Assembly (NCBI GenBank): GCA_035295165.1
Contig: DATGJN010000031.1
Span: 1 to 40,708 of the forward strand
DNA: 40,708 bases
Direction of reading: 5' to 3'
Origin: a bacterium
GTDB taxonomy: Bacteria; Sysuimicrobiota; Sysuimicrobiia; Sysuimicrobiales; Segetimicrobiaceae
Below the pieces are notes generated by a model. The model saw only the letters and a program-made list of their open reading frames with translations. It made no database searches and was not told where the DNA came from. Position 1 is the stretch's first letter, and each line of letters starts with the position of its first letter. This document shows, piece after piece, positions 1 to 17,502 of this stretch. The translations under genes were made by a program, and so were the position numbers.

Positions 1-798
1 CGCTGGCTCTCCGCGCTCGCGGCAGAGATTCCCGACACGCACCGGCTCGATGTCTTGAGCGTCACGCGGTTCTTCTCGCGCCTGCGGGAACGGCGGCTCG
101 CACCGAACAGCCTCCATCAATGCTATCGGACCGTGAAGACCTTTACGCGGTGGTGCCTTGCCCTCGGGGTGCTGAGACGGAATCCGCTGGACGGGTTCGT
201 GTTGAAAACGCCGCGCACGTTGCCCTCGGTGCCGAGTCCCGAGGACGTCGCGGCGCTCCTGAAGCGGTGCCCGGCGACCGGGTTCATCGGTCTGCGGGCG
301 CGGGCCATTGTCTTATTCCTCGCCGATAGTGGGGTACGGCAGAGCGAACTCCGACACCTCATGATCGAGCACGTGGACGTGTCGGCACGGACGGCGCTGG
401 TCCGAGGCGGCAAGGGTGCGAAGGACCGGCCCGTGGTCTTCGGGCCGATCACCGCTCGGGCGCTGCGGCAGTGGCTCGCGGTGCATCCGTATCCGCACCC
501 CGAGAGCCCGCTGTTCTGCGCCAAGAACGGCAACCCGATTCAGAAGCGGAATCTGGTGCACACCCTGCACCGGCTCTCGATCAGCGCCAAACTGGCGAGG
601 AAGGTCGGGCCGCATGCGCTGCGACATTTTGCGGCGACGTCCTGGCTGCGGCACGGCGTCGGGCTCGATCAAGTACGGCGGTTGCTTGGGCACTCCTCGT
701 TGCAGACGACGCTCCGATACAGCAGTCTGGTCGCGACGGACCTGAAGGCCGCGCACAAGGAAGCGTCGGCGGTGGAGAAGATGCGATTAGTGGATTGA
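1..798 (+). CDS. Tyrosine recombinase/integrase (5' end missing)
   Basis: The frame is open from base 1, so the N-terminus lies outside the window and 265 codons remain. An N-terminal SAM-like core-binding region (about residues 1-65 of the visible part) is followed by the catalytic domain. The full catalytic set is visible: Arg113 (GVRQSE), Lys138 (RGGKG), His205 and Arg208 (HALRH), His231 (LLGHSS) and the nucleophile Tyr240 (TTLRYS). It probably catalyses integration and excision at the tRNA-Ala site. An intrinsic terminator follows 20 bases after the stop. An internal TTG at 55 could be called as a start, but it would remove much of the N-terminal DNA-binding domain. Confidence 0.95.
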   Translation, partial: RWLSALAAEIPDTHRLDVLSVTRFFSRLRERRLAPNSLHQCYRTVKTFTRWCLALGVLRRNPLDGFVLKTPRTLPSVPSPEDVAALLKRCPATGFIGLRARAIVLFLADSGVRQSELRHLMIEHVDVSARTALVRGGKGAKDRPVVFGPITARALRQWLAVHPYPHPESPLFCAKNGNPIQKRNLVHTLHRLSISAKLARKVGPHALRHFAATSWLRHGVGLDQVRRLLGHSSLQTTLRYSSLVATDLKAAHKEASAVEKMRLVD

Positions 799-818
799 GG
801 TCACGAGAGGACAGAGGG

Positions 819-856
819 GGGCCGCGTCGATTCAGGGCGCGGCCCTTTCTTTTTTG
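819..856 (+). terminator. Rho-independent terminator after integrase
   Basis: A perfect 8-bp GC stem (GGGCCGCG at 819-826 with CGCGGCCC at 838-845) has an 11-nt loop and is followed by TTTCTTTTTT. It lies just downstream of the integrase stop. A related hairpin occurs at 1633-1657. Confidence 0.85.
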
Positions 857-869
857 CTCGCCGTGGTAC

Positions 870-1085
870 TCAAAGACGTTCGAGCACTTCAGGGTACTGC
901 CGCACATACCAGCACATTTCTTCAACGCCACGCCGCTGTTTATCGGGTTGCAAGTATGTCCACCGGATCATATGCCAACAATGGATGAGCCCTTCACGAT
1001 GACGACGATACAGCGACGTGAGTGCAACCTGGCTGAGCCACGCGACTAACGCAATGGCTACGGCCTCGGCCATTTCCAGTAGCAT
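870..1085 (-). CDS. Small membrane-anchored protein
   Basis: 71 aa. The N-terminal segment, about residues 5-24, is one hydrophobic helix (MAEAVAIALVAWLSQVALTS), followed by a basic Arg/His-rich stretch and a tail with Trp and Tyr. This fits a single-pass protein with a cytoplasmic tail. The ATG at 1085 is preceded by GGGAGGGAG at good spacing, which supports a real gene although it is short. I recognise no family. It stands alone, convergent with the integrase and divergent from the secreted-protein gene at 1284. Confidence 0.6.
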   Translation of the reverse strand: MLLEMAEAVAIALVAWLSQVALTSLYRRHREGLIHCWHMIRWTYLQPDKQRRGVEEMCWYVRQYPEVLERL

Positions 1086-1223
1086 GTTCGCTCAACTCCC
1101 TCCCGTGGACGCAATGTTTTTGGCCCCGCGACATTTGGCTCTTAACGTAGCGCGCCGCGTGCCTCGTGTCCAGACGTACATGTGTTTACTCGGATTCGTT
1201 TGGCGGTTCCCATGATGACCAAT

Positions 1224-1245
1224 CGAATCAGGGATTCGCTAGAAT
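1224..1245 (+). promoter_or_regulatory. Palindromic operator and -10 box
   Basis: A perfect 6-3-6 inverted repeat (CGAATC agg GATTCG, 1224-1238) directly precedes a -10-like TAGAAT (1240-1245). It lies about 40-60 bases upstream of the gene at 1284, in the -35/-10 spacer position where a repressor would block transcription. The -35 region is weak (TGACCA-like at 1216). Confidence 0.4.
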
Positions 1246-1283
1246 GGGGATGGCACAGACGCGGCAACAGGGGGGCGAGGAAA

Positions 1284-1574
1284 ATGAAACGAGTGGTCTA
1301 TCCAGTGTGTTGGATAGTCGCGGTGATACTCTTGATGATGATCGCTTGGACAGTACGGCCCAATGCATCACAGGGGCAATCAGTCTCCCGCCCTTCAACA
1401 GCGTATGCGTTGATGCTGAACCCCAGTCTTCGCCCAGCCGATTGGCACCCACAAGGCTTGGTATTCCTTTCATCCGCCGTGTGCGAACACTTTGCGGAGA
1501 CCTGGAACGACCGGACGACGGGGCAAGGACTTGGTGGGAATAATATTGCTCTGTACGATTGCGCGAAGTTCTGA
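1284..1574 (+). CDS. Small secreted or membrane-anchored protein
   Basis: 96 aa. The start at 1284 is chosen because GGGGGGCGAGG lies just upstream and the protein then begins with a signal sequence or anchor: basic MKR, a hydrophobic core (about residues 6-22) and a polar region. An upstream in-frame ATG at 1182 would add 34 residues ahead of the signal and is less likely. The mature part has two Cys (CEHF and DCAK), possibly a disulfide in an exported protein. No known family. A palindromic site sits in its promoter region. Confidence 0.6.
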   Translation: MKRVVYPVCWIVAVILLMMIAWTVRPNASQGQSVSRPSTAYALMLNPSLRPADWHPQGLVFLSSAVCEHFAETWNDRTTGQGLGGNNIALYDCAKF

Positions 1575-1624
1575 GGGAGTTAGCGTCGCGTCCGCGACTT
1601 CATCCACATGCCGTTCGAGTTTGC

Positions 1625-1657
1625 AAAAGGGGGGCTGCGTCGATGATCGGCGCGGCC
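1625..1657 (-). terminator. Terminator of the leftward replication operon
   Basis: On the minus strand GGCCGCG (1657-1651) pairs with CGCAGCC (1639-1633) apart from one mismatch, followed by CCCCTTTT. It sits 23 bases past the last leftward gene (stop at 1680). Its stem and loop resemble the integrase terminator at 819-845. Confidence 0.6.
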
Positions 1658-1679
1658 TCTTCTGTGCCTATCTAAGACG

Positions 1680-2249
1680 CTAGAACAACGGACGACACTC
1701 TCCGGCTGGTCTCACCCCGATGTTAACCACCGTCGGCTCGCCGGTGCGAGATGCAAGCAGGTCGAACGTGATCCCGCGATCCAGATAGTTGAGCCGGGTG
1801 ACCGTGGATGCGTAGTTCGGTTGGCCTCGGCTGCGGTCGGCGTGAATGAGCACATCCAGGCAGTCTCTCACGGACCCTAGCCTAGTGTTGTCAGCCGTAT
1901 CGCCGTAGGTCCGCAGGACGAGGCTAAGGGGAGTGCCGATCTTGACGCCTTCTCGCGTCACCGCGCTTCGATCCCCAATGTCAATGCTCCAGAGTTGGAA
2001 CACGTCGGTCGGGTTTGTTGACACGCGCCGATTGAACACCAAGGTTGCGTTCGCGTAGTACCAATCACTCGCAATCTGTCCCTCGTCCTGACGTTGGGGA
2101 GCGCCGAGGACTGTACGGACCTGCTCCTGCGTTTCCCCGAGGACAATCGGTCCCCAGGACTTCCCGGGGATGATGAGCCATTGAGTTTGCGCGCCCGCAG
2201 GCACCGCGCAGCAAGTCACCAGCACAAGCAGGCTGACCAATCGCCGCAT
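1680..2249 (-). CDS. Secreted protein with BLIP/BamE-like repeats
   Basis: 189 aa. The start at 2249 gives a typical signal peptide (MRRLVSLLVLVTCCAVPAGA, cleavage after AGA) with GAGGGGG just upstream. A longer in-frame start at 2312 would bury the signal. Residues about 33-75 (GPIVLGETQEQV, LGAP, WYY, LVFNR) match the pattern of small periplasmic BLIP/SmpA-type folds. A similar, more divergent block follows at about 102-150 (IGTPLSLVLRTYG, ITFDLL). The function is unknown; such folds usually bind other envelope proteins. It is the last gene of the leftward operon. Confidence 0.65.
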   Translation of the reverse strand: MRRLVSLLVLVTCCAVPAGAQTQWLIIPGKSWGPIVLGETQEQVRTVLGAPQRQDEGQIASDWYYANATLVFNRRVSTNPTDVFQLWSIDIGDRSAVTREGVKIGTPLSLVLRTYGDTADNTRLGSVRDCLDVLIHADRSRGQPNYASTVTRLNYLDRGITFDLLASRTGEPTVVNIGVRPAGECRPLF

Positions 2250-2419
2250 GCAGATGCCCCCCTCGTGGCGCTTGATTCGTCGATGCGCCCTAGTGCGCCT
2301 GCCCTGAGCCACGCGACGTTGCCCGTAGACCTGGGGATCGGGGCGGGGCGCTGTCTACCTGCGGGGTTCGATCTTGCGTGCGCCTACGGGCAGGTTTTCG
2401 GTAACGAATGGACGGAAGG

Positions 2420-2995
2420 CTACAGCGCGTCGTCCATGTGCTCTAAGAGCGCCTCAGCGACGTCGCGACCGACCAGTTTCGAAAACGACGCGGGTGTTCT
2501 GCGCGGTTTGTACCTCTTCCGACGCCTCCATACCTCGCTCGCGTCGGGAGCCGTCCGCGCCTCGATGACGTCGTGAATCTCTGCCAGCAGAAGGGTTGCG
2601 AGTGATCCGACCGTACGCGGTTTCCTGATCCATTCCGATATGTAGTTCATCGTGTTGGGCGCGTTCCCGGTCAACCGGAGATGGCACGAGGTGAGCCGCA
2701 AGCACAAATCCGCAGCCCGAGATACCGCTGGTACGTCTTCCCACACCGCCGACAGCGCGTCGGGAATCGCGACAAGTTTCGAGAGTTCGGCGAGGCTTCC
2801 TAATCCCGTCCACCAGCACGTATCATCGACCGCGCACAGCAGCGCAATGTCGAGTATCTGGATCAAGACGTCGGCGGACACGTCGTTCGAAAGCGGCTCA
2901 CTTGGAATGGGAGGAAGCGTCCGCAAATCAGCGGGGATGGGATGTTCGTCCGGTTCCGCATAAGCGCGATGTAGGTCAAGCCTATCGAGTGGCAC
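2420..2995 (-). CDS. Hypothetical protein
   Basis: 191 aa, probably cytoplasmic and mostly helical, with no signal peptide and no recognised motif. The C-terminal 35 residues are basic (EVWRRRKRYKPRRTPASF), which could contact nucleic acid. The GTG start at 2995 is well supported by AAAGGAG seven bases upstream. A potential hairpin with two competing 3' arms lies just before that site (3011-3051). It is in the leftward operon after the small genes at 3177-3840, separated by about 180 bases. Confidence 0.6.
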   Translation of the reverse strand: MPLDRLDLHRAYAEPDEHPIPADLRTLPPIPSEPLSNDVSADVLIQILDIALLCAVDDTCWWTGLGSLAELSKLVAIPDALSAVWEDVPAVSRAADLCLRLTSCHLRLTGNAPNTMNYISEWIRKPRTVGSLATLLLAEIHDVIEARTAPDASEVWRRRKRYKPRRTPASFSKLVGRDVAEALLEHMDDAL

Positions 2996-3010
2996 GAATC
3001 GCTCCTTTCA

Positions 3011-3051
3011 GACACCCGAACACCCGCTGGGCAGGAGTTCCAACGGGTGTC
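3011..3051 (-). promoter_or_regulatory. Hairpin upstream of the ribosome site at 3000
   Basis: GACACCCG (3011-3018) pairs with CGGGTGTC (3044-3051). A second CACCCG (3021-3026) can compete for the same partner. On the minus strand the hairpin ends just before the AAAGGAG of the 2420-2995 gene. It has no T-run, so it may affect translation or mRNA stability instead of ending transcription. Confidence 0.35.
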
Positions 3052-3176
3052 GGGTCCCCGCACCGCACGGGCAGGAACGCGCGGTCTCGGGTCTTCCCGG
3101 CGGCGGTGCCGGACGAACCTATGGGAGACTCGGGCCGTGTTGAGCCGCCGCCGCCGGGAATCGGCTTGCCGCTGCG

Positions 3177-3419
3177 CTACGGGTTGTGCCCTTCGTGCTC
3201 GAACGCCGTATCGCCCAGTTGCTTCACCAGCCACGCGGTGCATCGCTGACCCACGGCATGTTCGTCAGCATCGGCGACACTTGGGAAGAGGCCGAACAAG
3301 CGACCATGCGCCACGAGGACATACGAGGCCGGTGGAAACTGCGTCAACAGGCGCATCCGGTTCGACAGGTAGATGGATCGCTCCACGGTGAAGTCGGTCG
3401 CGATAGCCTCGGTGCTCAT
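3177..3419 (-). CDS. Small protein, DUF5678-like
   Basis: 80 aa. The middle (YVLVAHGRLFGLFPSVADADEHA) resembles the short DUF5678-type pattern of a beta hairpin with an acidic Ala-rich helix, seen in many small bacterial and archaeal proteins of unknown role. The start ATG overlaps the stop of the preceding gene by 4 bases (ATGA), so translation is probably coupled. GGAGG lies about 12 bases upstream. Confidence 0.6.
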   Translation of the reverse strand: MSTEAIATDFTVERSIYLSNRMRLLTQFPPASYVLVAHGRLFGLFPSVADADEHAVGQRCTAWLVKQLGDTAFEHEGHNP

Positions 3420-3625
3420 TTGGGTTCAACGCCTCCATCGACCGCGCTCCGTGTGCCTGCGGGACCTTTCGCGGCCATCTTGCCGCCGTTGCCGCTCGCA
3501 TCTGTCATGGCTTGTGCGGCTCGCCTGTCGGCACGTTCCATTCCCTGCTCATTACTCGCGCGCCGATCCCAAAGTGGTGTGGTCGCTTCGTTCGGAAGTC
3601 GGGTCTTGCCGCGTCTCGTCGCCAT
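3416..3625 (-). CDS. Small basic protein
   Basis: 69 aa, rich in Arg, Ala and Gly, low complexity and probably poorly structured. It overlaps the preceding gene by one base (TGATG) and the next by four (ATGA), and GGAG lies upstream of the ATG. The linked overlaps are the main evidence that it is real. A GTG one codon upstream (3628) is also possible. No family recognised. Confidence 0.5.
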   Translation of the reverse strand: MATRRGKTRLPNEATTPLWDRRASNEQGMERADRRAAQAMTDASGNGGKMAAKGPAGTRSAVDGGVEPK

Positions 3626-3840
3626 CACTTCGTCTCCGACGGCCCGCCGCAGAAATCCATCTCGTCCGCGTGAACGGCGGCGCTCCTCTCTTGACGGGAG
3701 CCGTGTTGTGCCGCCGTGCGGTTCACGACGACGTTGCCGCTCCCAACCCCGTCCATCTTGGGCTTCGCGGTGCTCGTGTTGAGCCGCTTGCCTGGCTCCT
3801 GACGAGCCGCGCTCCTGTCGCTCCTGCGATCTGTTGCCAT
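3625..3840 (-). CDS. Small hydrophilic protein
   Basis: 71 aa, highly charged (MATDRRSDRSAARQEPGKR at the N-terminus), with an acidic C-terminus (HADEMDFCGGPSETK). The ATG at 3840 is chosen because GGGAGGGA precedes it. A longer in-frame ATG at 3948 overlaps the Prim-Pol gene end and lacks such a site. It is the first of three chained small genes behind Prim-Pol. Its function is unknown. Confidence 0.5.
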   Translation of the reverse strand: MATDRRSDRSAARQEPGKRLNTSTAKPKMDGVGSGNVVVNRTAAQHGSRQERSAAVHADEMDFCGGPSETK

Positions 3841-3892
3841 GTGAGTATCCCTCCCAGAGTTGTGAAAAAGTCCCTCATAGGAGATATCCGCC

Positions 3893-5179
3893 TTAGTGCC
3901 CGTCCTGCGCGTGAATGTAGACCGGGTTGCCTTCGGGATCGACGTCAATCTGCACCAGGTACTTGTGCTCGGTCAGATATTCCCACGCCGTCCGCGCCCG
4001 CCATTCGCTCAATCCGGTCCACCACTGAATGAACCGGCGCGTGTAGGTTGACCCCGACGGCGGATAGATCGCCCACTTGCACGCCTGAAGAAAACGGAAC
4101 CCTTCGAGCGCGGTCCCGATGTACGGTGGGACGTCGGTCGGCAGACACCGCGCCAGCGGGATGTCGGCGGGTTCGAGTACCCCGAGGTCCACGAGCACTC
4201 GGATGTTCAGCACGGCTTGCGACACGCGAGGGAGGTGGACAGCGATGCCGGTGCGCCGGTACACGTCATATTCGCCGACGGTGATGCCGCGCCGTCTCCC
4301 GCGTTCGTGCCAGTCATTCATCCACACGAGACCACCTTCTGCGTAGGAGAACGAGACAGAGGGATGCCACTCCTCGTGGATGGGACACCGCATACATTGG
4401 CCGTAGGTGATCCCAACGCTCTCGGCGTAGCGTTCCCGCACCTCTTCATGTGACCAGATATACCGAACTCTCTCGTCAGCAGGTATCTCTCTGAGGTCAT
4501 CAGGAGAAAACCTCCCTAGTTGAGAGAGGGGGTGCCCGATCTCCCCTTTCAGGGGAAACCTCCTAAGTTGAGAGATCGCCGCTCTCTGAGCGTGTTCATT
4601 TTTCTTTGATGGATTACGAAGCAACGCATTCCACTCATCGGGTGCGGCATAGACCAGACGCGGAGTCAGCAGCGTCTTTCCCGACAACGCGAGAAGTTGC
4701 CCCTGGCCTTTGATCTCGATGAGGTGATGACGCTTGCCCTCCGCATCGACGAAGGAGCCGATGTTCTGTCCGCGATAGGGTCCGTCCATTTGAATGACGC
4801 GGTGATTGCCTCGACGCCCTTGCAGCGTTTCGGTGAGGGGACGAAGGTGCTGCTCGTGCATGATCTTGTCGAGGTGCTCTTCGCCCTTCCGACAGTCGGT
4901 CTCCACGCTCGCGAGGAACGCCGATCCCTCGCCACATGCGGTCGAGAACGTCATGCGCGGGAAGCGGCGACGCATCTCGTTGAACTGGTCAACGGTCTGC
5001 GGCTTCGTCTGCCAGCCGTACTCCTTTTCCCACTTCACGACCGGATGCTTCGTGCCGGGGATCGTCGGGATGATCGCGATGCCGTAATGGTTGTGTAGCA
5101 CCGCGCCGTGCTGTTCGACCGTGGTCAAAGTTGTTCCAGGTGTGATAGGAAGAATCCGCGTCGATGAGGTACTATACAC
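3893..5179 (-). CDS. Primase-polymerase (AEP Prim-Pol) replication protein
   Basis: 428 aa from the GTG at 5179, which has AGGAGGG eight bases upstream; a longer frame to 5314 lacks support. Residues about 25-185 fit the bifunctional primase/polymerase fold: GIAIIPTIPGTKHPVVKW near the start, an acidic pair Glu93-x-Asp95 (SVETD), a glycine/His motif (GRRGNHR, His126) and IEIKG (Glu155) at the third catalytic position. A half zinc site (Cys262, Cys265, His268, then HPS) resembles the start of a CHC2 primase zinc finger, but the second Cys pair is missing. The C-terminus may be winged-helix. It probably primes element replication together with the ATPase at 15901-17424. Assignment is by motif pattern. 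Confidence 0.8.
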   Translation of the reverse strand: MYSTSSTRILPITPGTTLTTVEQHGAVLHNHYGIAIIPTIPGTKHPVVKWEKEYGWQTKPQTVDQFNEMRRRFPRMTFSTACGEGSAFLASVETDCRKGEEHLDKIMHEQHLRPLTETLQGRRGNHRVIQMDGPYRGQNIGSFVDAEGKRHHLIEIKGQGQLLALSGKTLLTPRLVYAAPDEWNALLRNPSKKNEHAQRAAISQLRRFPLKGEIGHPLSQLGRFSPDDLREIPADERVRYIWSHEEVRERYAESVGITYGQCMRCPIHEEWHPSVSFSYAEGGLVWMNDWHERGRRRGITVGEYDVYRRTGIAVHLPRVSQAVLNIRVLVDLGVLEPADIPLARCLPTDVPPYIGTALEGFRFLQACKWAIYPPSGSTYTRRFIQWWTGLSEWRARTAWEYLTEHKYLVQIDVDPEGNPVYIHAQDGH

Positions 5180-5246
5180 TTGTAATCCCTCCTGTCGCCT
5201 CGGCCCCCAAGGTTCCCCGCCTCGGGCCGACGGCTGTCTAAAGTGG

Positions 5247-5480
5247 CTAGTTCTGCGTTCCTCCGTCGCTGAGGTCGCCGCGCAGCCACCGCAGCAGCGC
5301 CGTGCGTCGGGCAAAGTGCCGCTTGCCCATCCTCACCCGCACCGTCGGCGGCAACTGCTGAAATCGCTTGTATTTGCCGCTCAGACTTGGGTCTGGAAAC
5401 AAGTGCTTGATCTCGGGAAAGGACAACAGCGCCTTGTTTGGAATCAGCCGCTCGTCGGCGGTGCGCGCCTTGCCGGTCAT
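5247..5480 (-). CDS. Excisionase-like DNA-binding protein
   Basis: 77 aa from the ATG at 5480, which is preceded by GGAGGAGG. The core (LLSFPEIKHLFPDPSLSGKY followed by VRVRMGKRHFARRTALLRWL) looks like an AlpA/excisionase-type winged helix: a helix-turn-helix, then a basic wing and a short helix. It is the first gene of the leftward operon, 67 bases before Prim-Pol, and follows a leader RNA with an intrinsic terminator. It may control excision, the operon, or initiation at an origin. Confidence 0.65.
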   Translation of the reverse strand: MTGKARTADERLIPNKALLSFPEIKHLFPDPSLSGKYKRFQQLPPTVRVRMGKRHFARRTALLRWLRGDLSDGGTQN

Positions 5481-5499
5481 GTCCGTCCACCTCCTCCTC

Positions 5500-5545
5500 G
5501 AAAAAAAGCAAAGGACCATCGAGACGTTGTTGCGTCCCGATGGCC
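5500..5545 (-). terminator. Intrinsic terminator or attenuator in the leader
   Basis: On the minus strand a 13-bp near-perfect stem (5545-5533 with 5526-5513, 6-nt loop) is followed by CCTTTGCTTTTTTT. It lies between the promoter at 5625-5654 and the first gene at 5480, so it can stop transcription before the operon. A second upstream arm (GACCATCG, complement of 5548-5555) can pair with the same 3' arm, giving an alternative fold. Confidence 0.75.
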
Positions 5546-5559
5546 CCCGATGGTCTTGA

Positions 5560-5618
5560 GGGTCTAACTCGGTTGCTCTTGCGAGCGGGGTGCGATCCCC
5601 TGCGGACGAAGCCGCCTT
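5560..5618 (-). ncRNA. Structured leader RNA with three tandem hairpins
   Basis: Immediately after the predicted transcription start, three short perfect stems follow one another on the minus strand: GCGG/CCGC (5615-5602), GGGG/CCCC (5600-5587) and GAGC/GCTC (5586-5575), with 6-, 6- and 4-nt loops. The intrinsic terminator comes next. No open frame with a ribosome site was seen in this 138-nt leader. It may be a cis-acting attenuator or a small RNA. I found no match to T-box signature sequence. Confidence 0.5.
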
Positions 5619-7567: not shown

Positions 7568-7969
7568 ATGAGCGTTTCGGGAGGTCGGCTTCGTGTTCCT
7601 GTCGCGCGGGGGTTCCCGACAACACTTTACACCATCGAAGGGCGTGTTGCCGGGATCGTCAAGATGAACAAGCACCGCGAGGTCTACTTGGAGCGGCTCG
7701 GCGACATGCGGCATGTGTTCGGGCCACCGCTCGTGATGGAGGCGGGCTTTGCGTTCGATGTTGAGACGATCAGTGACGCACGCGATCTCGGCGCGGAATG
7801 GGTCATTGTCGTGACGCGCAACGGACGCAAGCGGTGGATCGCTCGGCTCGATGCGTTCGCGGAGCACGGGCAACCGTTTCGAGTCGAGGGGTACAATGCT
7901 CAACTTTGTCTTGCGCTCCGGCACTGGAAGGTGCGCGAACTCACTCGGCATTTGGTCGGTGCGTCATGA
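7568..7969 (+). CDS. Hypothetical protein
   Basis: 133 aa from the ATG at 7568, in frame with a GTG at 7559; the true start is uncertain because neither has a good ribosome site. The sequence mixes strands and helices: VYLERLGDMRHVFGPPLVM, a central acidic piece (DVETISDARDLGAEWVIVVT), then GRKRWIARLDAFAEHG and a C-terminal LCLALRHWKV. This layout recurs in small mobile-element proteins of unknown function. It belongs to the rightward block. Confidence 0.55.
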   Translation: MSVSGGRLRVPVARGFPTTLYTIEGRVAGIVKMNKHREVYLERLGDMRHVFGPPLVMEAGFAFDVETISDARDLGAEWVIVVTRNGRKRWIARLDAFAEHGQPFRVEGYNAQLCLALRHWKVRELTRHLVGAS

Positions 7970-8006
7970 TCGCGGTCGCGGCGGAACATTGAGACAAAGA
8001 GGTGAT

Positions 8007-8627
8007 ATGGCGATGGAGACCCTGTACGTTGCCCTCGACAACTTTAGTTACGTGTTCGGCGACCACGGACGAGTCCGTTCGTTCAAGGCGGGCGAAGTGC
8101 TGTCCGATAGCCTTGTCGCTCTCTTCGGGACCGCCACTGTGCCCGTCGTGAAACAGAGCGAGCAAGACTGCTACTGGTGGTGTTCGGCGTGCCGCAGTCT
8201 GCACGATCTTGATCCGGAGACGTGCACTGTGGATCATCGCACCCCGATTTGGCGTGTTCCAGCGCCCATCCGTTGCGCAATACCGACCGGTGGCGTCAGA
8301 TCGTACGAAATGGGTCAGCACATTTTCGATCCGCTCGACGTGCAGGCGCTCAGGGGCACCAACGTCCCGGTCGAGGCGGTCGAAGACGCCGCATTGTGCG
8401 CGCTGGTCTGTAACAACTGCGGCGCTCGATACCGTAGGGTAATCGCTGCGGGATATCCGGTCGAAGAGGCAAGACGCTTGCGAGCACGCGACCAGCGAGA
8501 CGCTCAACTGCTGGAAGACGCGGCGATCATCGAGCGAGAGCATGCCCGACGTGCCGCTGCTAAGAAGGAGCGGTCGTATGCGCGCATTGCGGCGCTCAAG
8601 GCCAAGATGGCACAGGAGGAGCGCTGA
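8007..8627 (+). CDS. Zinc-ribbon and coiled-coil protein
   Basis: 206 aa from the ATG at 8007, preceded by AAAGAGGTG. Two CxxC pairs (Cys59-Cys62 and Cys135-Cys138), with further Cys at 55, 73, 90 and 131, suggest one or two structural zinc sites. Residues about 145-206 are strongly helical and charged (EEARRLRARDQRDAQLLEDA, HARRAAAKKERS), probably a coiled coil. The stop overlaps the next start by one base (TGATG). Function unknown. Confidence 0.6.
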   Translation: MAMETLYVALDNFSYVFGDHGRVRSFKAGEVLSDSLVALFGTATVPVVKQSEQDCYWWCSACRSLHDLDPETCTVDHRTPIWRVPAPIRCAIPTGGVRSYEMGQHIFDPLDVQALRGTNVPVEAVEDAALCALVCNNCGARYRRVIAAGYPVEEARRLRARDQRDAQLLEDAAIIEREHARRAAAKKERSYARIAALKAKMAQEER

Positions 8628-9323: not shown

Positions 9324-10409
9324 TCACCTAAAAGTCGCAAGGATGCTCCCGTGATCGCCATCGCAAGGAGTACCGGCTCCTGTCATATTGTAGGATCCCA
9401 CCATCGTGGCCTGCGAGAAAATGGAGAACTTGAATGTGGCGACGACACTGCCCCCATTCCCTTGTGCAATACCGCTCACGATGTCATGTGGTTGACCGTA
9501 ACCTATGCCTGTCGAGTCCGTACCCGATATTGAAAGATTCCCAAAGCATCCGCCCATTCCCATACTTCCTGTAACTGTTCGCCCACCATATACCTCTTCA
9601 TTCGTCACGATGAAATTCGCAACAAAGACTCCGCTCCTGCCGGTTACCGCACTCTTCCATGTTCCAGACCAGGCGGGCGATCCCGTGGGAACGGTGGGTT
9701 GCGGCAAGTTCGGTGAAGGCGGAATCGGCGGAGGCGGGATTGGTGAAGACGCAGCAGGAAGGGGCGCAAGAGCAGTGCCCCCAAGGAGTAAGCGAGCGGA
9801 GTTTATTGCAGCGGCGAAGTTAATGCCCTGTTGTTCACCGCGCAGTGTGCCGCGCACAATACCGATCACATCTCCCTGAAGATTGAATACCGGCCCGCCG
9901 CTGTTCCCAGGACTCACCGGAGCCTGAATCTGCAGGAGGTTCGCTCGGATCGCGCTAACAATGCCCACCGTAACCGTCGCAGTTGCCGTGCCCAAATCTT
10001 CGATACGCGGAAATCCAATAACAACAACCGTTTCGCCCTCGTGCGTTCTGTTAATGTCACCGAGCGACAGAGGACGTACCGGTAGGTTAGGTATGCTCAA
10101 AACCGCGACATCATTCGCTTGACTGCTTCGCACAAGTCGCGCCTGTACTGCTGGATACTCGGGAAATTTCAGAGCGATTTGTGTCGCTCCTTGCACCACG
10201 TGATTAGCCGTTAGCACTAGTCCATTGCCAATGAAAAATCCGGTGCCTGAAAACACGCCCTTAGGCCCTTTTGCAAGGATCACGGCCACGCTAGATTTGG
10301 CATTCGCGACGACTACTTCTACATCTTGCGCCTTCGCAGTCGGAATCGACAGCAGACATCCCGAGGCAAGAAACAGTACGGCAATACATCCGGAGACCGT
10401 ACGGCGCAT
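9324..10409 (-). CDS. Secreted trypsin-like serine protease (HtrA-type catalytic domain)
   Basis: 361 aa. A signal peptide (cleavage near AKA-Q, residue 27) precedes a chymotrypsin-fold protease domain, residues about 30-210, with the full triad: His70 (TANHVV), Asp100 (ANDVAVL) and Ser170 (GNSGGP). There is no PDZ domain. A proline-rich linker (about 216-245) leads to a C-terminal beta-rich domain of about 110 residues with two Cys, possibly a binding domain. AGGGGGAG precedes the ATG at 10409. It is a single leftward gene. It probably acts outside the membrane; the substrate is unknown. Confidence 0.85.
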   Translation of the reverse strand: MRRTVSGCIAVLFLASGCLLSIPTAKAQDVEVVVANAKSSVAVILAKGPKGVFSGTGFFIGNGLVLTANHVVQGATQIALKFPEYPAVQARLVRSSQANDVAVLSIPNLPVRPLSLGDINRTHEGETVVVIGFPRIEDLGTATATVTVGIVSAIRANLLQIQAPVSPGNSGGPVFNLQGDVIGIVRGTLRGEQQGINFAAAINSARLLLGGTALAPLPAASSPIPPPPIPPSPNLPQPTVPTGSPAWSGTWKSAVTGRSGVFVANFIVTNEEVYGGRTVTGSMGMGGCFGNLSISGTDSTGIGYGQPHDIVSGIAQGNGGSVVATFKFSIFSQATMVGSYNMTGAGTPCDGDHGSILATFR

Positions 10410-10644
10410 AGTCTCCCCCTCTTCAGCGCACTTCTCACATTGCTTCCCTATACCCGCAGGGACTCCTGGCTAGACTATCGGACGGGCCTCAAATGAGATC
10501 TCGTGCGGCAAGTTATGCGCTCAACCCGCGCGCACACTTAACTGGGCGTTTGTTCGGCAGGACCCCAACACCGAACAATGGGAAGACGTTGGGGGAAGAC
10601 GTTGGCGCTGGCGATTCTGCGATCTCCCGAAAGGTGTGACTGTC

Positions 10645-10983
10645 GTGTCCGAACAGGAACACGCCCCCCGCGATTTCCCCGGCTTCCTGCGCTCGGCGGA
10701 AGGTGGCTATTTGAAAATCGAAGACTTCTTGACCTTCGTTTCGGGCGCATCAAGCGCGAAGGGCGACACGAAAGCACGGGCGATGGCCTGGCTCAAGCGA
10801 CAGGGGATCACCGGCCCGGTTGAGGCGCTGTCGCCGGTTGAGGTGAGCCGGTTAACTGAGGCCGCGAGACAGGTGATTCTCGCGCGGAAGGGACGAGAGA
10901 AGCGCGAACTCACGCGCCCTGAAGAGGTGGTCCCCCCGAGCGGTAGCGCAGCGGATGCCGACCCGCCGGACAAACCGGAGTGA
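10645..10983 (+). CDS. Hypothetical protein
   Basis: 112 aa. The GTG at 10645 is preferred because AAAGGTG lies eight bases before it; a GTG at 10636 is too close to that site. The N-terminal half (FLRSAEGGYLKIEDFLTFVSG, then KARAMAWLKRQGITGPVE) is helical and could hold a small DNA-binding fold. The C-terminus is acidic and Pro-rich. A direct repeat GGGAAGACGTT lies about 50 bases upstream. No family recognised. Confidence 0.5.
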   Translation: MSEQEHAPRDFPGFLRSAEGGYLKIEDFLTFVSGASSAKGDTKARAMAWLKRQGITGPVEALSPVEVSRLTEAARQVILARKGREKRELTRPEEVVPPSGSAADADPPDKPE

Positions 10984-11030
10984 CCACATCGTCCAACAGC
11001 GCGCCGTCGGGGTCGAACGCCGCGAAACGT

Positions 11031-11348
11031 CTACGAGCCAGGATCGCGCCGGATCACCTTCCTGGCCAACTTGCCTGCGAACGATAGACCACTCTCTAGT
11101 TCCTTCTGCGCCTTCACGAACAACCGCCCCAGTAGCGGAAGACGGGCAGCAAAAACCTTCTCCCATCGCGCTCGGAGAATCCCGGGAATCGCCAATACGC
11201 GTTTGATCGCAGGGTGATGGTCGACGTGCGGCAGTTCGCGGTGTCGGTGCCCGAAGAATCCGGACACCTGAACGAGTAGGGTAAGTGCAAGCGCGCACGC
11301 CCCGGTGATTAGAATGCCTGGCCGCCTGCGCTCGGTGGATTTACTCAA
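11031..11348 (-). CDS. Single-pass membrane protein, partner of GIY-YIG gene
   Basis: 105 aa from a TTG start at 11348. A basic N-terminus (MSKSTERRRPG) leads into one membrane helix (about residues 12-32, ILITGACALALTLLVQVSGF), then a long basic soluble part (IPGILRARWEKVFAARLPLL, KLARKVIRR). It starts 28 bases after the GIY-YIG stop and is probably co-transcribed. The ribosome site is weak (GGTGATCC). Unknown function. Confidence 0.5.
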   Translation of the reverse strand: MSKSTERRRPGILITGACALALTLLVQVSGFFGHRHRELPHVDHHPAIKRVLAIPGILRARWEKVFAARLPLLGRLFVKAQKELESGLSFAGKLARKVIRRDPGS

Positions 11349-11376: not shown

Positions 11377-11694
11377 TCACTGACGGTTACACACAGGGTC
11401 CCACTTTTCGATCAGATCGTTTTCTTCAGCGCGTCTCGTGTTCTCGTCGCCGGATGTGTGGGCGTGGATGTGCGTTGCACCGTTGCGTTTCGCACAAGCC
11501 TCCCGTTCGTGATCCGCGAGCCGATCTTGCAGGCTAGACGTTTGACCAATGTAGATTGCTGCCCACCAGCCCGGCCTCGTCTGCTTCGCGTAGATGTAGT
11601 TACCTGGTTGGTCCTTGAAGTCACTCCCGATCAGATAGATCCAATAGCCGTACTTCTTCCCAGACGCGCCTTCCCAATCAATCCTATCGGCCAT
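11377..11694 (-). CDS. GIY-YIG nuclease-family protein
   Basis: 105 aa from the ATG at 11694, preceded by GAGGGAGGG. The domain covers nearly the whole protein. NYIYAK and AAIYIGQTSSLQDRLADHE give the paired Tyr-Ile/Tyr-Ile-Gly motif and the Arg-containing helix, followed by HIHAHTSGDENTRRAEENDL with the metal-binding Glu and DPVCNRQ at the end. An N-terminal strand (GYWIYLIG) is an insertion before the motif. The family cuts DNA in repair, restriction, homing and defence. A stand-alone domain of this size next to a membrane protein suggests a dedicated role, not UvrC. Confidence 0.75.
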   Translation of the reverse strand: MADRIDWEGASGKKYGYWIYLIGSDFKDQPGNYIYAKQTRPGWWAAIYIGQTSSLQDRLADHEREACAKRNGATHIHAHTSGDENTRRAEENDLIEKWDPVCNRQ

Positions 11695-11878: not shown

Positions 11879-11905
11879 TGGACATGGTACTAGTGTTCTT
11901 ATAAA
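11879..11905 (+). promoter_or_regulatory. Candidate promoter of the membrane/HEPN cassette
   Basis: TGGACA (11879-11884), a 15-base spacer and TATAAA (11900-11905). The next start codon, GTG at 11908 or 11917, is so close that the mRNA would be nearly or fully leaderless. A similar spacing (TGGACG-15-TAAATA) occurs at 17831-17857 before another GTG start. The short spacer lowers confidence. Confidence 0.35.
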
Positions 11906-11907
11906 CT

Positions 11908-12345
11908 GTGGATAAAGTGGACAAATCGATAGCGGAACGGGTCACGGGGTTGCGTCGGGCGTTCGTTGTCGGCACCGTCGTGATTGCGGGTGCCACGGTG
12001 ACTCTCCCGACCGTGTTTGAGCCGACCAGCGGCGAGGATGTCGGGTGCGCGGTGACGGGCGACTGTCGGTCCGACAATCCCGCGATCACGTCCTCGAAGT
12101 CACACACGGCCGATCCGAGCACCGTCTTCGTCAACGTTAACCAGGACGTAGCCGCGCAGATCGTGACGCCATCCTACTCCATCACCACGCCTTCCGTACA
12201 GGTCGCGATGCAGAGTGCGTCGCACTCGTTCTCGATCACGATGACCCCACGGATGGTGGTCGTCCTCGTGATCGCTGGCGTCGGGGTCTTGCTGCTGACG
12301 ACGAACGCGGCGCACACTCTGGGCGGGAAGTTGATTCGCCCGTGA
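11908..12345 (+). CDS. Two-helix membrane protein of a putative defence cassette
   Basis: 145 aa. One hydrophobic helix lies near each end (about residues 18-37 and 116-134), separated by a Ser/Thr-rich loop of about 78 residues with Cys47 and Cys53, probably outside the membrane. GTG at 11908 or 11917 is the start; no ribosome site is seen and a promoter lies immediately upstream, which suggests leaderless translation. The stop overlaps the next start by four bases (GTGA), so the two proteins are probably made together. No known family. Confidence 0.6.
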   Translation: MDKVDKSIAERVTGLRRAFVVGTVVIAGATVTLPTVFEPTSGEDVGCAVTGDCRSDNPAITSSKSHTADPSTVFVNVNQDVAAQIVTPSYSITTPSVQVAMQSASHSFSITMTPRMVVVLVIAGVGVLLLTTNAAHTLGGKLIRP

Positions 12346-13028
12346 GCGCACCATCCGGATCATCAACACCTCAACGTGTTCTGGAGTGGAAGGCATACCA
12401 TCGTGAGATGCGTGATCGCGAACTCCTCAATCTCTTCGTGACCGGCACGGTGCTTCGGCGCATGATTCAGTTGGTTGGGAAGAAGCGCGCGAAAACGCAC
12501 CTGTTAACCCGGTATGGCGAGGTTGTGCACAGCACGCTCCGGCATGTACATGCGACGTGGGGAGCAATCGCGGTCCGGCGCATGGTAGATACGACGCGCG
12601 GCACGCGGTCGCTGATGCGCTTGCTGATCGCGATACAAGATCGTTCGTCGGAAATCACGCGCGTCTGGTTCGTCTCTGAGTGGAATCCAGACCTGCGCGA
12701 TGTCGCCGAAAAAACCTTTGACCGGATTGCGGGGCGGAAAAACCCGCACCTGACCAAGCAGACTGTTCTCGATGACCAGCGATACCTTCGAGACAGGACG
12801 CAGAAGATTGTGAATTGGGCAAATGCGTACGTGGCCCATCACGGCACGCCTCCGCCGACCTCCCCGACCTTCCGCGACCTGCGGTTAGCCATCAACGCGG
12901 TGGTCCGCGTCAACAACAAATACGCCGAACTCTTGCTCGAACGCAAAGCAATGATGCCAACGATTCTGGAGCCCTGGGAATCTGTGTTCGAGGTGCCCTG
13001 GGTGGCGAAACGGCGGAAGCGACACTAG
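12342..13028 (+). CDS. AbiU2/HEPN-like protein
   Basis: 228 aa, helical and basic. The C-terminal half resembles AbiU2-type HEPN proteins: WANAYVAHHG (His156) at the place of the usual RNKxxAH motif, then PTFRDLRLAINAVVRVNNKY and a closing PWESVFEVPW (211-220). The Arg expected six residues before His156 is Ala150, so RNase activity of the usual kind is doubtful; Arg142 could compensate. HEPN proteins commonly serve in abortive infection and toxin-antitoxin systems. It overlaps the membrane-protein gene by four bases. The assignment is by pattern only. Confidence 0.5.
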   Translation: MSAPSGSSTPQRVLEWKAYHREMRDRELLNLFVTGTVLRRMIQLVGKKRAKTHLLTRYGEVVHSTLRHVHATWGAIAVRRMVDTTRGTRSLMRLLIAIQDRSSEITRVWFVSEWNPDLRDVAEKTFDRIAGRKNPHLTKQTVLDDQRYLRDRTQKIVNWANAYVAHHGTPPPTSPTFRDLRLAINAVVRVNNKYAELLLERKAMMPTILEPWESVFEVPWVAKRRKRH

Positions 13029-13051
13029 GCTTGACGAGGGAGGATCGGGAT

Positions 13052-13354
13052 ATGACGACAATGATGCCACCGCGCGCGCCCGTGATGCTGTATCGTGATG
13101 AAAACCAAATGCCTCTTGAGGAGGGTGTGCAGGAGTGGTTTCTGAGCAACCAAATACCAACACCACACGGACGCATCCAGGTTCCAGGTCGTCGCGGCGA
13201 AGTGTACCATGTCGGAAGACTTGTCAGCGAACTAACGACCGAGTGGCCGCCCGTCGTTCGCAACTGGCTGAGACAGTTCGGTTCGAGCAACCCGGAAGCG
13301 CTCGTGATCGAGTGGAGATCCGAAAAGCCGCAAGGCGTGTCGCGGGCGGGCTGA
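13052..13354 (+). CDS. Small protein, third gene of the cassette
   Basis: 100 aa from the ATG at 13052, preceded by GGGAGG and 23 bases after the HEPN-like gene. It reads as a compact mixed fold (QEWFLSNQIPTPHGRIQVPG, EVYHVGRLVSELTTEWPPVV, NWLRQFGSSNPEALVIEWRS). No signal peptide or known family. The position suggests a partner, for example an antitoxin or adaptor, but nothing in the sequence shows this. Confidence 0.55.
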   Translation: MTTMMPPRAPVMLYRDENQMPLEEGVQEWFLSNQIPTPHGRIQVPGRRGEVYHVGRLVSELTTEWPPVVRNWLRQFGSSNPEALVIEWRSEKPQGVSRAG

Positions 13355-13808: not shown

Positions 13809-14498
13809 ATGAGAGCGATAGGCTATGTAAGAGTCTCTACTGCCGATCAAACCAACGACGGGATCAGTCTCGATGTCCAAACGGCGCGCATCGAAGCCTA
13901 TGCCGCGATGATGAACCTCGAACTGGTTGTGATCATCCGCGAAGAGGGCGTCTCGGCATCGATTCCGCTCAAGGATCGTCCTGGCGGGAAGCAAGTGCTC
14001 GCGGCGCTTTGGGAACAGGACGTCCGACACGTTGTCGCACTCAAGTTGGATCGGCTGTTCAGAGACGCCGCCGACTGTCTCACCCAGACGAAGGAGTGGG
14101 ATACTGCCGGAATCGCGCTACACCTGGTCGATATGGGCGGGATGACGCTCAATACGGCGTCGGCGATGGGCCGGATGTTCCTCACGATCAGTGCCGCGTT
14201 TGCGGAGTTGGAGCGGAACCTCATCAGCGAGCGGACCAGTCAAGCCTTGCAGCACAAGAAATCACGCGGCGAACCTGTCGGGAGACCGCCGTTCGGGTTC
14301 AAGATGGTCGATCACCGGCTGGTACCGATCCCTGAAGAACTCGCAATCATCGCCGAGGTCAAACGGCAGCGGGCGGAAGGTCGCACCCTCTGGCAGATCG
14401 CGAACTATCTCAGGGAACAGAACGTGCCGACGCGACAGAACGGAGCATGGCGGCATAACTCGGTGCGGCAACTCTTGAGCGTAACGGAGACAGCGTAA
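13809..14498 (+). CDS. Small serine recombinase (resolvase/invertase family)
   Basis: 229 aa. The resolvase domain (about residues 1-145) has the nucleophile Ser10 (YVRVSTADQ), the conserved LDRLFRD region and the long helix with ELERNLISERT. A recombinase-type DNA-binding part follows (RGEPVGRPPFGF, then WQIANYLREQNVPTRQNGAWRHNSVRQLL). Length is that of small resolvases rather than large integrases. GGGGGAGCGAGG precedes the ATG. It is a second recombinase beside the integrase and may resolve dimers or invert a segment. No crossover site was identified with certainty. Confidence 0.9.
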   Translation: MRAIGYVRVSTADQTNDGISLDVQTARIEAYAAMMNLELVVIIREEGVSASIPLKDRPGGKQVLAALWEQDVRHVVALKLDRLFRDAADCLTQTKEWDTAGIALHLVDMGGMTLNTASAMGRMFLTISAAFAELERNLISERTSQALQHKKSRGEPVGRPPFGFKMVDHRLVPIPEELAIIAEVKRQRAEGRTLWQIANYLREQNVPTRQNGAWRHNSVRQLLSVTETA

Positions 14499-15020: not shown

Positions 15021-15659
15021 TTAGGAGGGCTTGTGCTTCTCGGACACTCTCTTATCCTCGTCATAGAAATCTTGGGCGGGGCGATAGTACTCCGTATTCT
15101 GGTACTCGGCTCGGCACCAATCAACATACGCGGTGATCTCGCCATTTCGGAACGCAATGAGCGCGTAATGACCGAACACGTCCGAGATCACGTCGAAGTC
15201 CAGCATTCCCTCCTGCCAGTACGTGCCGAGCGCGTCAAGATACCCAAGGTAACTATCGACATGGTAGGCGTCGAACTTGCCGTCGCCTTCCGCGTGTTCC
15301 TTTCGGCGAAAGGCGGTGACAGCATCCCAAAACGCGCGGTCGTGCGGAGAGGTGTGCCCGATGGCGTCTTGGGCGAAGATCGCGTCAGGCGGCGTCTTGT
15401 CTAACGCCTCGATCAGTTGTTGGTTTTGCTTCTTGTCCTTGTCCGAGAAGTAGAACGCCTCGTTGAAGCGGAACACGAAATCCCCCGTTGCCGTGTTTTG
15501 CAGCCCCCGAAGTTGCGTATAGGCGATCACGGCGAGAACAAGCGTAGCGGCCGCAATGATCCACCCCGTATCCCAGTTCCTGAGTGCCGTTAAAATGAAA
15601 CCCACGAATAGGATCACGGATGAGATCTGGAATGAACGATTGTTGACATTCGCGCCCAT
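15021..15659 (-). CDS. Two-helix membrane protein, DUF4760-like
   Basis: 212 aa from the ATG at 15659, preceded by GGGGAGG; a longer frame to 15791 is unlikely. Two membrane helices (about residues 12-27 and 32-48) are followed by a cytoplasmic domain of about 160 residues (FVFRFNEAFYFSDKDKKQNQ, VDSYLGYLDALGTYWQEGML, ISDVFGHYALIAFRNGEI). Its layout resembles DUF4760-type membrane proteins of unknown function. It lies downstream of the ATPase gene, with inverted 9-bp repeats between. Confidence 0.6.
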   Translation of the reverse strand: MGANVNNRSFQISSVILFVGFILTALRNWDTGWIIAAATLVLAVIAYTQLRGLQNTATGDFVFRFNEAFYFSDKDKKQNQQLIEALDKTPPDAIFAQDAIGHTSPHDRAFWDAVTAFRRKEHAEGDGKFDAYHVDSYLGYLDALGTYWQEGMLDFDVISDVFGHYALIAFRNGEITAYVDWCRAEYQNTEYYRPAQDFYDEDKRVSEKHKPS

Positions 15660-15796
15660 GTTATCCTCCCCGAGCGGTGTGCGGGCGTGATTGTACCACA
15701 CCGCTAGGCTTTGTTTTGAAACTGCTGATGCCCCCTGCGCCGGTCCGCTGATCGAGCGGTCGTCAGACTGCCACGTGGCACTTCCGCCCATGACGG

Positions 15797-15906
15797 TTGT
15801 GACACTTGTGACACTGCTGTGCGCGGGACCTTAACGGGCCGATAGTCTTTCGCGGCACAACTTCTCGTGGCGAACCCATGTGTCACAAGCGTCACAAGCG
15901 TCACGC
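15797..15906. repeat. Inverted clusters of 9-bp iteron-like repeats
   Basis: Two copies of TTGTGACAC in direct orientation (15797-15805, 15806-15814) face three inverted copies (GTGTCACAA at 15880, GCGTCACAA at 15889, GCGTCACGC at 15898) across a 65-base spacer. They overlap the 3' end of the ATPase gene. Tandem repeats beside a replication gene could bind an initiator or regulator. Because 9 is a multiple of 3, the right cluster also reads as a Val-Thr-Leu repeat in an overlapping frame (GTG start at 15904). Confidence 0.65.
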
Positions 15907-17424
15907 TGATCGCCCGCGCCGGATGCGATACCCGCGCTCCTTCGACGTGCGATTGCGCTCGACGATGACACCAATCTTGCGGAGGTTGCCTTGGATCCGC
16001 ACGATCTCGTCGTGCATTGCGCGGAGCGACTTCAGGACCTTATGACTGCGGTCGGCCTCGTCGACCATCTTGCGAAGCGTATCGCGCAGCAGGGTGGCAG
16101 GGCAGAAGAGAACGCCCTGATTGTCCGTGCGCAATCCACGGGTCTGCCCCTTATACGCGCCGCGCTCGGCTTGTTCGAGGAGCGTGACGAGGGGTGATGT
16201 AAGGATCGACGCTTCCAGGGCCATCGCATTAATCTCCGCGCGGTTTTTTGTCTCGGCGTCCGTAACTGCCTCACGGGTCCACCCCATGCTCCGCGCGGCG
16301 GCGATCACCCAGCGGAAGTAGTCGGCCATGCGAGGCAGTTCGTCGAGTCGAATGTCGGGGAGATCGCGCAGCGCACCCGCGATCACCGTCAACATCGCGC
16401 CTAGCAGCGCGGGGCGGAGTGTCCGATATTGGTCCAGTAACTCGGACTCGCTGCGGCGCTGCTCTTTCGGAATCGTCGCGAGGTGCAGCATGATCGCCCG
16501 GTCGAGCAAGTCGCCGCGTGTCGCCACGTCCGTAATCGAGGTGAGCAGCACTGGCCGGCGGTAGGTAAATACGGTTTCATCGGTATCTGTGTATAGCCGC
16601 CGCTTCGCAAAACCGGCGCCGGTCGCAAGCCGGCAGATCGTGTCGGAGAGTTTCACGGAGATCTCGCTGAGGTTGTCCCAGCCGACGATCCAGGCGTTGT
16701 GCGCCCGAATCATCACATCCCGCGTTGTTGTCGGCGGCGCCGCTAGTTGAGCGGTGTTGGGATCGACGAGGTTTCGAAGCATGAGGCCTGCCGTTGTCTT
16801 GCCGCTACCTGGTTCGCCGTGGAGACAGAGCACGGGGAACGACGCGTGGTTCTGTACGGTGGCGAACTCCCAGGACATGGCGAGGGTCCATTCGTGTGGC
16901 TGTGTGAAGTTGAGGAGCCGCCGTAGGTCGGTTAAATCACCGCCCCGCCTCGGTACGGGCAGCGGCAACATACCCTGCGCACGGCGGAAGTGCACCCTCG
17001 GCAAAGTGACGACACGCCATCCAGTTGCTTCGATTTTGACCGCCCGCCACCGCTTATCGCAGAGGTCGAGATAGATTGCGCGCGGTGTTTCCGCGATCCG
17101 CAGGTGCACCTGTTTGCGCGGGCCTTGGTGAAGTGCGAGGGCGTCGCAGAGGCGCACGACTCTGCGTACCTCGGCTTCACTCGGCACGACTTTGTAGAGG
17201 TCCAGGTACCGCGATACGAGCCAGCGTTCGAACGCCGTAGACGTGATCGCGTAGTTTGCCGAGGTGCGTTCGCCGAGTGGACATACCGCATAGCCGAGAT
17301 CGTCGGGGTCATGGAACAGCACCGTTGCTTTTCGGGTCTCCTCCGCAAACTGTGCGGCCCGCGTGATCTCCTGTGGGGTTGCCTCCTGTTCAGCGGTGCC
17401 TTGCGCGGAGTCGTCGTGATTCAT
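15901..17424 (-). CDS. Primase-associated AAA+/SF3-like ATPase (replicative helicase)
   Basis: 507 aa from the ATG at 17424, preceded by AAAGGAGGG. An N-terminal region (about 1-195; DLCDKRWRAVKIEATGWRVV then GMLPLPVPRRGG) is typical of the linker ahead of primase-helicase ATPases. The ATPase core has Walker A GEPGSGKT (203-210), a Walker B-like IVGWDN (246-251), a sensor strand (RRPVLLTSITDV) and a candidate arginine finger in RGDLLDRA. The C-terminus (MHDEIVRIQGNLRKIGV, ERGYRIRRG) is winged-helix-like. It probably unwinds the element's DNA and works with the Prim-Pol. It lies in a separate leftward unit beside attR with its own long leader. Confidence 0.75.
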   Translation of the reverse strand: MNHDDSAQGTAEQEATPQEITRAAQFAEETRKATVLFHDPDDLGYAVCPLGERTSANYAITSTAFERWLVSRYLDLYKVVPSEAEVRRVVRLCDALALHQGPRKQVHLRIAETPRAIYLDLCDKRWRAVKIEATGWRVVTLPRVHFRRAQGMLPLPVPRRGGDLTDLRRLLNFTQPHEWTLAMSWEFATVQNHASFPVLCLHGEPGSGKTTAGLMLRNLVDPNTAQLAAPPTTTRDVMIRAHNAWIVGWDNLSEISVKLSDTICRLATGAGFAKRRLYTDTDETVFTYRRPVLLTSITDVATRGDLLDRAIMLHLATIPKEQRRSESELLDQYRTLRPALLGAMLTVIAGALRDLPDIRLDELPRMADYFRWVIAAARSMGWTREAVTDAETKNRAEINAMALEASILTSPLVTLLEQAERGAYKGQTRGLRTDNQGVLFCPATLLRDTLRKMVDEADRSHKVLKSLRAMHDEIVRIQGNLRKIGVIVERNRTSKERGYRIRRGRSA

Positions 17425-17462
17425 CGGCTCACCCTCCTTTTGCGCTTGTGCAGAACCCCAAG

Positions 17463-17502
17463 AAAGCAAAAAGGCCCCTTGACGGGGTGGCGCCCCATCA
17501 AG
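17463..17502 (-). terminator. Intrinsic terminator in the ATPase leader
   Basis: On the minus strand CTTGATGGGG (17502-17493) pairs with CCCCGTCAAG (17487-17478) around a 5-nt loop, with one G-T pair, followed by GGGGCCTTTTTGCTTTC. It lies 39 bases before the ATPase start. It has the same place and the same tail (TTTGCTTT) as the leader terminator at 5500-5545, so the two replication units may share a control mechanism. Confidence 0.7.

Follow-up and report, generated by a model that had tools for sequence, protein, structure and literature searches.

An AbiU2-type HEPN gene on a probable mobile element of a Segetimicrobiaceae bacterium belongs to a small branch without the motif arginine

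The window analysed here, 40,708 nucleotides long, makes up all of contig C31, one of 121 contigs in a genome of 4.79 Mb. It carries an AbiU2-branch HEPN gene without the motif Arg on mobile DNA, a real and rare natural variant of the HEPN motif. The encoded 228-aa protein is homologous to HEPN_AbiU2, the motif Arg is lost and the motif His retained in all five branch members found, and most of them have mobile or defence surroundings. The preferred reading, given about even confidence, is that the gene stands alone, belongs to a small Arg-less AbiU2-type branch and travels as cargo of an integrated mobile element. Few RNase effectors in bacterial immunity are as common as the HEPN proteins, and predictions of their activity usually rely on an Arg/His pair. 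A branch consistently devoid of the Arg and retaining the His along with other arginines would offer a clean test of RNA cutting versus a role as binder or regulator. The claim that the gene belongs to a three-gene cassette adds little to this.

Assignment to the AbiU2-like HEPN proteins, made in the original prediction, is weak for the 228-aa protein alone and solid through its relatives. Against Pfam HEPN_AbiU2 (PF18734) the protein gives E=0.033 and 14.1 bits, the gathering cut-off being 26.8, and a chance-level Cas3_HD match ranks above it. Matches to Cas3_HD, DUF3022 and VP35 were rejected as chance. Relatives from the same bacterial family (G024:C75 and G023:C11), 29-34% identical to the window protein, exceed the AbiU2 cut-off with E=6.9e-8 and 1.9e-6, so the family guess was right; in bits, relative P0006 reaches 32.6 and relative P0007 27.9. 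At the level of sequence, membership of the 228-aa protein in PF18734 is thus by transitive homology. The myxobacterial relative matches AbiU2 at E=7e-5, below the cut-off, and the relative from a Streptomyces plasmid was matched by hhalign at 99.4%.

The five branch members found come from three of the phylum's 43 genomes, a myxobacterial genome and a plasmid of Streptomyces. When the three members from the phylum were aligned and used to scan 84,980 genomes of bacteria and archaea, by a method that uses short conserved peptides and so misses distant members, one further HEPN member came up, the myxobacterial one. Profile searching of the myxobacterial phylum (379 genomes) added no other, and PF18734 itself gave one weak partial match and no full-length members in 189 genomes of that phylum. 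The Streptomyces copy was found by tblastn of plasmids using the relatives as queries; the 228-aa protein itself as query gave no matches in plasmids, phages or viral contigs. Structure prediction from two-sequence alignments gave an all-helical model (pLDDT 44, pTM 0.40; 46.7 for a relative), and a PDB fold search with these low-confidence structures gave no significant match. The HEPN fold therefore rests on profile homology. Sequence search of solved structures matched only designed coiled-coil-type (apCC) proteins, which were rejected.

The motif region of the window protein reads W159-Ala160-N161-A162-Y163-V164-A165-His166. The motif Arg had been predicted to be replaced by Ala150; it is indeed missing, but residue 150 is an Arg and the altered residue is Ala160, six residues before His166. 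In the five members the motif Arg position is occupied by A, V, V, V and T. Invariant in their alignment (window numbering) are R79, R80, D83, R107 and H166. The residue preference of the PF18734 column was gauged by scoring singly substituted copies of P0006 against the Pfam profile. With its natural Val at the motif position P0006 scores 32.6 bits, compared with 38.0 for Arg, 33.7 for Lys, 30.2 for Thr and 29.8 for Ala; Arg is thus the best residue tested (+5.4 bits over Val, against -2.8 for Ala). Placing Arg one position earlier brings no gain (32.7 bits). Replacement of the His lowers the score to 21.8, a cost of 10.8 bits, and replacement of the Arg equivalent to R80 costs 3.3 bits. Since the profile column favours Arg and all five members have the His without it, they form a small Arg-less branch of AbiU2.

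The branch is homologous to HEPN_AbiU2 by profile across most of the domain and has in common with it the conserved His, the Arg conserved in the RRxxD helix, and surroundings of mobile or defence type; it differs in the A, V or T that replaces the motif Arg in every member. AbiU2 was listed as motif-conserved in the 2013 HEPN survey (PMC3710099). The same survey describes Parep1/8, which likewise lacks the Arg of Rx4-6H and has the His, and for which other conserved basic residues were proposed as substitutes. Parep1/8 is an archaeal HEPN-T family, however, and serves as precedent only. By analogy, R80 and R107 are candidate substitutes for the motif Arg.

Gene content indicates that positions 1-17.5 kb of the window are probably one integrated mobile element (Table 1), the left border of which may lie off the contig. 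Asparaginase, peptidase and ABC transport genes lie right of 18.7 kb. No convincing att repeats were found around the element, and the closest matches to its flanking genes in related genomes are only 36-39% identical and probably paralogues.

Table 1. Features in the left part of the window (positions in nucleotides)
Feature	Position	Strand	Length	Remarks
Phage-type tyrosine integrase	55-798			Contig end
Prim-Pol	3893-5314
Trypsin-like serine protease	9324-10409	-	361 aa	Resembles protease part of PADLOC RT-Protease_XI, 72.6 bits
GIY-YIG-like nuclease domain protein	11377-11694	-	105 aa	Weak, below Pfam cut-off; PADLOC PDC-S14 weak, E=0.0008
Membrane protein	11908-12345	+	145 aa	GTG start; second in-frame GTG at 11917
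AbiU2-clade HEPN protein	12342-13028	+	228 aa
100-aa protein	13052-13354	+	100 aa	GGAGG-like ribosome-binding sequence upstream
Serine recombinase	13809-14498	+	229 aa	C-terminally short: Resolvase and half of Recombinase domain
DUF4760-like membrane protein	15021-15791			E=0.00024, below cut-off
P-loop ATPase	15901-17469			Helicase-like by eye

Four of the five HEPN genes adjoin recombinases, transposases or a DUF499 defence locus. The G023 copy adjoins a serine resolvase and a tyrosine integrase, and the Streptomyces plasmid copy lies between IS1380/IS3 elements. The myxobacterial copy lies divergently next to DUF499 and DUF7680 genes (locus L018, region 443-5588), a neighbourhood of BREX-related defence type; BREX-related defence systems are built around DUF499 ATPases (PMC12839542). 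The G024 copy lies beside a nickel transporter gene, in no obvious defence or mobile context. Beside the window copy there was neither an AbiU1 partner nor a Sel1-repeat partner nor an R-M operon. PADLOC gave no AbiU match among the other neighbours scanned, and its models for all systems gave no match to the membrane, HEPN or 100-aa protein at E<=1. Overall the surroundings fit a mobile conflict gene, which falls short of proof of defence; defence by the HEPN gene alone is possible.

The three genes from the membrane-protein gene to the 100-aa gene were confirmed as predicted, consecutive on the plus strand, with a 4-base overlap (GTGA) between the first two and a 23-base gap before the third; upstream of them, on the opposite strand, is the GIY-YIG-like gene. 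For each of the three the codon-usage score is the highest of the six frames. GC3 is 0.82 for the membrane gene and 0.70 for the HEPN gene, GC of the 100-aa gene is 0.64 at positions 1 and 3, and protein relatives exist for the HEPN and 100-aa proteins. The unit had also been credited with its own promoter and a terminator-like hairpin. Sigma-70-like sites number 2 in the region versus 0.9 +/- 1.0 in shuffles, and terminator-like hairpins 2 versus 2.2 +/- 1.5, neither beyond chance; the predicted hairpin moreover overlaps the last codons of the 100-aa gene. As such sites are equally frequent in shuffled sequence, this claim carries no weight.

As originally described, the 145-aa protein is hydrophobic in two places, at residues about 18-37 and 112-133, both predicted to be transmembrane helices, with a Ser/Thr/Val-rich segment containing two Cys between them. 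It has no relative in viral contigs at E<=0.001 or in plasmids at E<=1, and its one marginal match among the 43 genomes of the phylum (28% identity, E=0.0097) is not convincing; by these searches it is an ORFan. The small transmembrane ORFs of contig C8 of the same genome were considered and found unrelated to it. The 100-aa family is restricted, within the phylum, to its own genus, with one relative in each of two sister species and one or two more in the same genome. In the sister species the gene is flanked by NIPSNAP on one side and a PHP-domain or acyl-CoA synthetase gene on the other, and no HEPN gene lies nearby. Relatives confined to the genus and unaccompanied by the HEPN branch mark a separate family, and the 100-aa gene is probably an unrelated neighbour that forms no system with the HEPN gene.

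A new defence system made of the three genes is not supported. Co-occurrence elsewhere, the lack of which the original prediction had named as a refutation, was sought and none was found: relatives of the membrane or 100-aa protein stand beside none of the other four HEPN genes. The absence of these neighbours, the want of a convincing relative for the membrane protein and the HEPN-free settings of the 100-aa family together count against the cassette. The three genes might instead be a toxin-antitoxin-like set with the 100-aa protein as antitoxin or immunity protein. In favour of this are the adjacency of the HEPN and 100-aa genes across 23 bases and a distant 100-aa copy on contig C8, which has two proteins with HEPN motifs and small membrane ORFs in its vicinity. 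The motifs of those proteins were recognised by eye only, however, and do not align to the Arg-less branch; with the sister-species copies among metabolic genes and the 100-aa gene missing beside every HEPN relative found, such a set is hardly credible. The narrower proposal of a two-gene abortive-infection module, in which the membrane protein would be sensor or effector and would hold the HEPN protein at the membrane until infection, draws on the shared strand and the GTGA overlap, through which the membrane gene may be translationally coupled to the HEPN gene. HEPN is also tied to a membrane segment in the DUF4145, Abi2/Swt1 and Zn-ribbon groups (PMC3710099), although those groups carry it within a single polypeptide and here it would be supplied by a separate ORFan gene. 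Under the preferred reading, too, the membrane protein may tether or control the HEPN protein, but the pairing is seen only in this genome: none of the other four HEPN loci has a membrane gene at a comparable upstream, overlapping position. The G024 locus has a short ORF with one helix some 400 bases upstream and the nickel transporter gene downstream. The single-genome pairing, along with the lack of a convincing relative of the membrane protein in phylum, viral contigs and plasmids, makes the module distinctly unlikely. The more specific form of the idea, a new conflict module of the two-helix protein with an Arg-less AbiU2 HEPN whose active site is a different one, formed by His166 and either R80 or R107, or which does not cut RNA, is very unlikely.

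Loss of the Arg, and a score that for the protein alone falls below the Pfam cut-off, could mark a decaying or catalytically dead remnant with no present function. The reading frame is intact, however, its codon usage is good, and the five divergent members all lack the Arg yet keep His166, R79, R80, D83 and R107 invariant. Such a pattern suggests that an alternative design has been maintained, not that the gene is decaying, and a remnant is considered unlikely. As a member of a maintained Arg-less branch, the HEPN protein would bind RNA or act on it when in conflict with phages or rival elements. It may be a weak or conditional RNase in which His166 works with R80 or R107, both conserved and basic, or it may leave RNA uncut and serve as a binder or regulator. 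When Abi genes including lactococcal AbiU2 were cloned in E. coli, growth inhibition was reported only for AbiEii (PMC3985639); that AbiU2 was not reported as toxic counts against this reading.

On contig C8 (locus L012, G000:C8), the two proteins with HEPN-like motifs (7598-8116 and 10370-11056; RQFRNYVHP and LRSGLVHEF) have no Pfam HEPN matches and do not align to the Arg-less branch. Their genes flank the distant 100-aa relative, two small membrane ORFs and a partial resolvase.
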